A stretch of 64,000 nucleotides of DNA from Acidobacteriota bacterium (GTDB lineage: Bacteria > Acidobacteriota > Blastocatellia > Chloracidobacteriales > Chloracidobacteriaceae): the NCBI GenBank assembly GCA_016208495.1, contig JACQXX010000060.1:1-64000 (forward strand). The letters run 5' to 3'. Below the pieces are notes generated by a model. That model was not told where the DNA came from, ran no database searches, and saw only the letters and a program-made list of their open reading frames with translations. Shown here one piece after another: positions 4,586 to 60,442 of the stretch; position 1 is the first letter of the stretch, and the number at the start of each line of letters is the position of its first letter. Position numbers and translations under genes: made by a program.

Positions 4586-4672
4586 GACAAGGGGACAGGG
4601 GAACAAGGGGACAGGGGGACAAGGGGACAAGGTGACAGGGTGACTGAAGGACAGATTGTCACCTTGTCATTC
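4586..4672. repeat. GACAAGGG/GACAAGGT tandem repeat with inverted end
   Basis: Octamer-like units (GGGGACAA, GGTGACAG) run to about 4645. They are followed at 4657-4670 by the inverse TTGTCACCTTGTCA, so the transcript could fold into a hairpin. The block lies in the 579-bp gap between the ABC gene and the small secreted protein gene. The rest of that gap (4328-4585) holds no gene I can support; the ABC gene promoter should lie there. Confidence 0.8.
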
Positions 4673-24874: not shown

Positions 24875-25094
24875 GTAGTCAGTAGTCAGTAGTTGATAAG
24901 TCAGTAGTCAGTAGAATTTAGTCAAAATCTTTTGGCAATGACCGAGATTCGTTCCGTGTGAAAATGTGATAACTGAAGATATTTGACACCAATTTACAAG
25001 GAAATCCTCGTGTTAGAAAACAGTCAAAGGATTCAACCAAATAAACTCAGTGAACTACTGACTACTGACTTATCAACTACTGACTACTGACTAC
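24875..25094. repeat. Array-spacer-inverted array element with perfect 40-bp arms
   Basis: The left arm 24875-24914 is built from GTAGTCA heptads interrupted once by GTTGATAA. The right arm 25055-25094 is its exact reverse complement over all 40 positions. The 140-bp spacer has no coding potential. The element ends 14 bases before the ATG of the secreted protein gene. A TTTAG motif flanks it on both sides (24867 region and 25095), which might be a trace of insertion. Confidence 0.93.
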
Positions 25095-25108
25095 TTTAGG
25101 ATACCTAT

Positions 25109-34885: not shown

Positions 34886-35003
34886 GTCACTTTGTCACCC
34901 TGTCATTCTGTCACCTTGTCATTCTGTCACTTTGTCATTCTGTCACCTTGTCATTCTGTCACCCTGTCATTCTGTCACCTTGTCACCTTGTCACCTTGTC
35001 ATC
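34886..35003. repeat. TGTCACCT/TGTCATTC octamer array between nuoD and nuoH
   Basis: About fifteen octamers alternate between TGTCACCT, TGTCATTC and TGTCACTT variants, ending 16 bases before the nuoH ATG. Part of the array is open in frame with nuoH and can be mistaken for an N-terminal extension. Confidence 0.92.
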
Positions 35004-37580: not shown

Positions 37581-37734
37581 GTAGTCAGTAGTCAGTAGTC
37601 AGTAGTCAGGTGTTGGGATTATTCATTTTTCATCCGATGTATCTTGTTCTAAAAACGCAGCTTATGAATCCTTTTTGAGGGAATTTACTGATGAATGATC
37701 TTGGATTTTTCTACTGACTACTGACTACTGACTC
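37581..37734. repeat. Inverted pair of GTAGTCA arrays between nuoK and nuoL
   Basis: The left arm (37581-37609) has four GTAGTCA heptads. The right arm (37711-37733) has three inverted heptads. The spacer of about 100 bp begins GTGTTGGGA, as does the spacer of the copy at 60031. The element ends 28 bases before the nuoL ATG. Confidence 0.9.
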
Positions 37735-37761
37735 TTTGCCTACAACCAACTGGTGAACTCT

Positions 37762-45074: not shown

Positions 45075-45087
45075 AAGAATGAAGAAA

Positions 45088-45228
45088 GTGGTTAGTGGTT
45101 AGTGGTTAGTGGTTAGTATTTGGTGTTTAGTATTTGGTGTTTAGTATTTAGAAGTCAATGCTTTCAAAGTAGTACCAGTCACCCGATACCAGGCACTAAC
45201 CACTAACCACTAACCACTAACCACTAAT
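45088..45228. repeat. Inverted pair of GTGGTTA arrays
   Basis: The left arm (45088-45117) has four GTGGTTA heptads and continues into TTTAGTA-like units. The right arm (45193-45228) has five ACTAACC heptads in inverse orientation. The spacer contains GAAGTCAATGCTTTCAAAG, whose complement resembles the spacer of the copies at 54622 and 63793. The rest of the 417-bp gap (to 45491) holds nothing I recognise. Confidence 0.88.
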
Positions 45229-51529: not shown

Positions 51530-51824
51530 GTTGATAAGTCAGTAGTCAGTAGTCAGTAGTCAGTAGTCAGTAGTCAGTAGTCAGTAGTCAGTAGTCAGTA
51601 GTCAGTAGTCAGTAGTCAGTAGTCAGTAGTCAGTAGTCAGTAGTCAGTAGTCAGTAGTCGAGTGTGGGGATTTGAGGACTTGTGTCAAGTGGATTTGGTT
51701 CTATTTGAGTCAGTTAGGAACAATTCTTTTCAAGAATTCCACGGATTCAACGATCCGGGTTTTATCTACTGACTACTGACTACTGACTCATCATCTACTG
51801 ACTACTGACTTATCAACAACTGAC
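51530..51824. repeat. Largest GTAGTCA array with inverted partner
   Basis: Seventeen exact tandem copies of AGTAGTC occupy 51541-51659. After a spacer of 106 bp the inverse array follows (51766-51824), interrupted by CATCAT and ending in CAACAACTGAC. The spacer is homologous to that of the copy at 60031-60442. The element ends 35 bases before the cytochrome c gene. Confidence 0.95.
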
Positions 51825-60020: not shown

Positions 60021-60030
60021 AATTCTTTGA

Positions 60031-60442
60031 GTCAGTCGTCAGTCGTCAGTCGTCAGTAGCCAGTAGTCAGTAGTCAGTCGTCAGTCGTCAGTCGTCAGTC
60101 GTCAGTCGTCAGTCGTCAGTAGTCAGTAGTCAGTAGTCAGTAGTCAGTAGTCAGTAGTCGAGTGTTGGGAATTGAGAGTTTTTGTCAAGTGGATTTAGTT
60201 CGATTTGAATCATTTAGGAACAATTCTTTTCAAGAATTCGACGGATTCAACGATCCGGGTTTTATCTACTGATGCCAGTTAAGGGTTGAAAAAATTGTTC
60301 GTTGAAAACAAAGGACTTATCAAAATCTCAAGTTTCAGACGTTCAATCTGCTGTCTGTAAGTTGTTGATTTTGAAGTCTCAATTTCAACCCTTAATTCGC
60401 ATTACTGACTACTGACTACTGACTCATCAACGACTGACTGGG
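60031..60442. repeat. GTCAGTC/GTCAGTA array element with nested insertion
   Basis: The left arm (60031-60160) mixes two heptad variants, GTCAGTC and GTCAGTA, in blocks. The spacer (60161-60265) is homologous to that of 51660-51765. The right inverted arm begins at 60266, is interrupted by a 131-bp insertion (60272-60402) and resumes to 60439. It ends about 10 bases before the CYTH gene. Confidence 0.93.
60272..60402. mobile_element. MITE-like element nested in a heptad element
   Basis: The ends are inverted over about 23 bp (ATGCCAGTTAAGGGTTGAAA at the left, complement of TTTCAACCCTTAATTCGCAT at the right, with a few mismatches). TACTG stands on both outer sides (60267-60271 and 60403-60407), as a 5-bp target duplication would. 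Because the target is itself a TACTGAC repeat, the duplication is suggestive only. Comparison with the uninterrupted copy at 51766 shows the insertion clearly. Confidence 0.75.

Follow-up and report, generated by a model that had tools for sequence, protein, structure and literature searches.

Tandem heptanucleotide repeats have been known from the intergenic regions of bacteria for decades, and no clear reason has emerged for their number, position and inverted pairing. One such array, of AGTAGTC heptads, lies in a 64,000-nucleotide stretch (the window) at positions 1 to 64,000 of contig JACQXX010000060.1 of an Acidobacteriota bacterium (GCA_016208495.1), where it is followed by a spacer and by an inverted arm. 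An earlier sequence-only reading had noticed that the spacer recurs at a second locus and had proposed that array, spacer and inverted array spread together as one element. The locus therefore raises the question of whether these three parts form a single dispersed unit and, if so, how that unit multiplied. The genome is a draft of 8.38 Mb in 177 contigs and is one genome of the species. Genome-wide figures were obtained from a partly hit-selected sample of 2.05 Mb together with pattern counts, and ORFs were called simply, by length.

Anatomy of the element and its relatives in the window

Tandem Repeats Finder identified a period of 7 with 17.6 copies and a 100 % match at 51537–51659, and our own count agreed with the 17 exact AGTAGTC heptads described previously for this tract. 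A 21-mer of three units, (AGTCAGT)3, had 932 matches in the genome (500+432) vs 0 for the reversed control, which rules out a chance origin of the heptads. Assigning the inner part-unit to the arm gives the spacer its described length of 106 bp, and extending the spacer up to the first GACTACT gives 111 bp (51660–51770); the inverted arm comes next and reaches about position 51824. The similarity of the spacer to the second locus, formerly judged by eye, was also borne out, with 90 % identity over 111 bp (against 60160–60270) and a single mismatch (C/G) in the last 50 bases.

The sequence-only reading had missed a small unrelated repeat that interrupts the right arm of the second copy, as well as two further relatives of the element in the window (Table 1). 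An insert similar to the nested repeat was found within heptads of a relative's genome (L189, L256). The diverged relative (37581–37755 in a wider delimitation) lies in the nuo operon, in the gap that separates a nuoK-like from a nuoL-like gene. The neighbours of the window copy are a tRNA-Glu, an ORF of 90 aa and a c-type cytochrome gene, while those of the copy at 60160 are NRDD and CYTH.

Table 1. Element A and related copies in the 64-kb window
Feature	Position	Strand	Description
Left arm, element A	51530..51659	+	GTTGATA, then 17.6 exact AGTCAGT units; G-rich strand on +
Conserved core (spacer), element A	51660..51765	+	GAGTGTGGGG...CGGATTCAACGATCCGGGTTTTAT; at least 41 genome copies; positions 12–24 hypervariable
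Right arm (short, inverted), element A	51766..51824	+	CTACTGA units interspersed with CTCATCA/CTTATCAAC units
Left arm, second copy	60030..60159	+	18.6 units, TAGTCAG and TCGTCAG mixed
Core, second copy	60160..60266	+	90 % identity to first core
Small unrelated repeat nested in right arm of second copy	60273..60402	.	Inverted ends GTTAAGGGTTGAAA ... TTTCAACCCTTAA
Rest of right arm, second copy	60403..60440	+	
Diverged relative	37581..37733	+	GTAGTCA array, GTGTTGGGA...GATCTTGGATTTTT core, inverted array
Two-armed relative with a left half of MITE-B type	24875..25095	-	40-nt outer arms 100 % complementary

Copy number, dispersal and polarity of family A

A search of the genome with the spacer, hereafter the core of family A, showed that it is not restricted to two loci: at least 41 copies were found with 86–100 % identity, a count that is a minimum because 40 of 89 first-look candidates were scored. 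Nine contigs (0.92 Mb) chosen independently of the A hits contained seven copies, which extrapolates to approximately 64 genome-wide. The A core was absent from 57 related genomes up to class level and from the plasmids, phages and viral contigs searched.

The two window loci are only 8.5 kb apart and 90 % identical, as would be the case for a segmental or local duplication. However, the genes flanking them differ and, among the matches listed, ten copies are more similar to the window copy than is the copy at 60160. All ten are on other contigs, the best relatives having 95–96 % identity, while the partner within the window (90 %) has a middle rank. The 400-bp flanks of 24 A copies had nothing in common except another heptad array. 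As flanks and neighbouring genes are unrelated, family A is dispersed, and duplication, which retains practically no probability as the origin of the window loci, was rejected. Element A is a short, non-coding, multi-copy, intergenic and polar repeat with unrelated flanks.

Alignment of 30–34 A cores gave 91 % conservation per column except at positions 12–24, which consist of a few alternative modules; the right half of the core was the most constant. A full A copy comprises a long GTAGTCA array, a core of 106–111 bp and a short inverted array that is mixed with CTTATCAAC units. In the 2.05 Mb sample, all 24 two-armed copies had the order array–core–inverted array and none had the opposite order. 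In 20 of 24 paired copies, the long arm (3–30 units) adjoined the GAGTG side of the core, without dependence on the direction of the neighbouring genes (9 vs 8). Variants of the unit containing a C (TCGTCAG) on the left arm co-occurred with C-variants on the right arm (Fisher P=0.004, small numbers). Arm-length polarity and the correlation of unit variants favour a polar unit that spreads together with its arms.

Unit counts are lower bounds because contigs end inside arrays. A copies were located within ~250 bp of contig ends on C97, C92, C56, C138, C32, C172 and C75; heptad arrays seem to disrupt short-read assembly, and several contigs of this genome terminate within them.

Selection as an RNA structure, such as a bidirectional terminator or a stabiliser of mRNA 3′ ends, was considered as an explanation of family A and is unlikely. 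The whole element folds much better than shuffled sequences (z −8.7), its ends are close to stop codons and its core holds one weak terminator-like hairpin. However, the strength of the fold comes from the arms, since the core folds unremarkably when taken by itself (z −0.45), and compensatory changes were detected in 0 of 21 pairs of the core hairpins when 30 copies were compared. With neither covariation nor an Rfam match at the element, a conserved core RNA structure was rejected. The elements are also present in gaps separating tandem or divergent genes and in the nuo operon gap, and with one weak site and occurrences in operon gaps a terminator function was likewise rejected; a strong terminator role is unlikely because of the relative in the nuo operon. 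This relative indicates that A-type elements are tolerated within an operon, and family A is probably tolerated DNA without a host function that is able to sit inside operons.

Ends of the element, MITE-B and an IS630-type gene

A terminus, ATACCAG(TTTGTAG)TCAG, was identified at 12 of 67 outer A ends vs 0.5–0.7 expected in shuffled flanks; the copy at C136:84385 (L020) carries it on either side. The other 55 ends are without this terminus, and most ends are ragged within the array. A second family, MITE-B, opens with the terminus of A and has the form ATACCAGTTTG(TAGTCAG)n TAGTTCACTAAG...CCAAAATGGTAT; its copies measure 97, 104, 111 and 125 bp and differ mostly by whole heptads. Of 77 GTAGTCA groups in the sample, 33 were A and 26 were MITE-B. 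Arms are found on both sides in A and on one side only in typical MITE-B, and strand and array side were concordant in every one-armed MITE-B case. The two kinds are linked by the element at 24875–25095, which combines a MITE-B-like left half with two arms.

At its far end, ATACCATTTTGGAATGAAGTC.TCGTATTAG, MITE-B agrees with the end of an IS630-type DDE_3 gene at C61:38842–39317, a fragment of 153 aa (DDE_3 match, E 1e-16). A second IS630 copy with a MITE-B-matching end was found at a contig start (C58:1–139); both copies are cut by contig ends and show one end only.

On balance, these shared ends suggest that A is a non-autonomous, IS630-type MITE-like repeat, or a recombining derivative of one, with heptad arms that slip and erode its ends so that the termini are often lost. 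A would have been multiplied as a unit by a transposase of IS630/Tc1-mariner type recognising ATACCA...TGGTAT ends, which would also be used by the abundant 97–125-bp MITE-B and by the IS630 transposase gene of this genome. The missing end of the C58 and C61 copies of the putative parent IS630 might read ATACCAGTTTGTAGTCAG. After insertion in short gaps, the number of heptads would grow and shrink by slippage, the arms would be partly homogenised against each other and the outermost terminal repeat would often be lost. Most copies would consequently have both a ragged start and a ragged end within the array, a few bases from a stop codon or immediately in front of a ribosome binding site.

The proposal that array, spacer and inverted array spread as one element thus holds in part: the three behave as one polar unit, while neither an empty site nor an unambiguous flanking duplication that would mark an insertion was observed. 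ATA...TAT belongs to the terminal motif, so a TA target duplication is indistinguishable from it. The one orthologous gap read in a sister genus for an empty A site, rpiA–glyA (A at C92:48914 in this genome), is occupied there by a different heptad element, (TTGAGAA)n-core-(TTCTCAA)n. At a second locus, the cytochrome homologue of the sister genus is preceded by another upstream gene.

A different history, in which the arrays came first, by slippage or as the interior of MITE-B, and the A core then spread between them by homologous recombination or gene conversion, is possible though doubtful. GTAGTCA arrays number in the hundreds, identical heptads adjoin cores of at least two unrelated types (A and B), and the arrays are mosaics of TAGTCAG and TCGTCAG. 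The ragged ends of most A copies and the seemingly modular core variants near positions 12–24 are also compatible with this history. However, arm length tracks core polarity (20/24), which is unexpected for independent local arrays, and the transposon terminus has been kept at some A ends, including both sides of one copy.

Mobilisation by a REP-associated tyrosine transposase (RAYT), as for REPINs, is very improbable and was rejected. Every heptad contains the GTAG tag, the outer orientation is GTAG...CTAC, and nine Y1_Tnp matches, mostly of RAYT size, are present in the genome. However, the nine loci, when read, had other flanks, mostly GC-rich repeats, with this kind of heptad at 0 of 9, and other heptad families have the same anatomy without GTAG. 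Like A, REPINs with RAYT (PMC3116915) are inverted doublets around a spacer, intergenic and of high copy number, whereas a REP is a single palindrome lying beside a RAYT gene, a link that A does not have. The GC-rich repeats flanking most of the nine Y1/RAYT-type loci are REP-like (e.g. CGCCCGGATGGGCGCTGG and CTGCTTCGCAGGTT; L274–L279, L293).

Separately from family A, one MITE scaffold (ATACCA...GGGAAATACAAT...TGGTAT) was observed to bear GGGCTRA, GGGTTCA or GGGGTCA units (L165, L171, L174, L175, L176, L178, L183). The units flanking its fixed GGGTATC interrupter changed together, and the scaffold can exchange its unit as a whole.

Heptad arrays in the genome, in other phyla and in known systems

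Arrays of three or more units in the 2.05 Mb sample comprised 422 with period 7 vs 8 with period 6 and 51 with period 8, and the period-7 arrays were of about ten main unit types. A heptad array was present in 324 of 984 gaps of at least 60 bp. With simple ORF calls, the median distance of outer array ends was 9.5 bp to stop codons and 33 bp to start codons.

Where one unit forms inverted pairs, these follow a strand rule in which the G-rich strand comes first, i.e. points inward, with a ratio of 127 to 0 over the families listed. The ratio was 93 to 0 pairs in the 2.05 Mb when families were not chosen beforehand (e.g. 45087–45227 and 51537–51824 in the window) and 7 to 1 in a class-level relative. 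On viral contigs, GTAGTCA pairs gave five distinct G-inward stretches vs 0 over two matched gap ranges; in the longest gap range, pairs were found in neither order. A scan for the pair GTAGTCAGTAGTC...GACTACTGACTAC with a gap of 112–142 bp, from which polarity is not readable as the pair order was imposed, gave matches in Planctomycetota, Chloroflexota, Firmicutes, Cyanobacteria, Bacteroidota and Acidobacteriota (L238–L257). GTAGTCA inverted pairs with unrelated cores thus occur across at least six phyla, and some of these cores resemble terminators or other heptads.

A specialist would be surprised above all by the strand rule and by the unit that different phyla share. The strictness of the polarity and the return of a single unit in several phyla set concrete, testable limits on models of how the arrays form and spread. 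One speculative and quite improbable mechanism, suggested by the constant inward run of the G-rich strand, is that a templated repeat-adding enzyme builds polar arrays; the arms would be head-to-head repeats attached to each 3′ end of a break before these ends were joined, like fused telomeres. If true, such an enzyme would account for the polarity, for unit switching and for the recurrence of GTAGTCA across phyla.

Comparison with published systems shows that A is a known kind of repeat, akin to the G-rich pairs of Xanthomonas and the minisatellite-bearing MITEs of Porphyromonas, in a new form. BrickBuilt and MITE464 of Porphyromonas gingivalis are MITEs with an internal minisatellite (PMC4596501). 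As with A, they are short, non-coding, dispersed repeats with an internal tandem array. Their terminal repeats resemble those of resident IS elements, as those of A probably do, and, again as in A, have been lost in most copies, with both kept in only 4 of 19 (PMC4596501). They contain a single array of 23- or 41-bp units, whereas A has two inverted 7-bp arrays around a conserved core, putative IS630-type termini and a higher copy number.

The GGGAATC heptads of Xanthomonas (Rehm et al. 2015, PMC4692102) are intergenic and often paired as convergent inverted arrays, in 70 and 75 cases. Their G-rich strand is on the sense side where a stop codon is within 50 bp and antisense in the 50 bp that precede ORFs, and the pairs have the same G-inward geometry as those described here (PMC4692102). 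However, no shared core was reported for them, they are generally without a link to mobile elements and they form G-quadruplexes, while A has a common core and, at some ends, a transposon terminus. In this genome, one heptad type is connected with a specific dispersed element as well as with a transposon terminus.

The STRR arrays of the cyanobacteria Calothrix and Nostoc (cited in PMC4692102) are, as here, tandem intergenic heptads of several kinds, and perfect tandem intergenic heptads were found at many loci of this genome. Few inverted pairs were reported in Nostoc PCC 7120 and no core was reported for the STRR arrays, whereas A has a core. The description of STRR heptads as simple arrays of cyanobacteria, given in the sequence-only reading, is too narrow in view of the convergent pairs of Xanthomonas (PMC4692102) and of the GTAGTCA pairs that span several phyla. 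TAACTGA repeats, known from Beggiatoaceae, cyanobacteria and Bacteroidetes (MacGregor 2015, PMC4679880), resemble GTAGTCA in that a single heptad is patchily common to distant phyla. These repeats are mostly two to six direct copies upstream of start codons, whereas those of A are inverted around a core.

Arrays of period 8 (TGACAAGG/TGTCACCT) at 1020–1093, 4586–4653 and 34893–35002 constitute a parallel set of intergenic repeats in the window.
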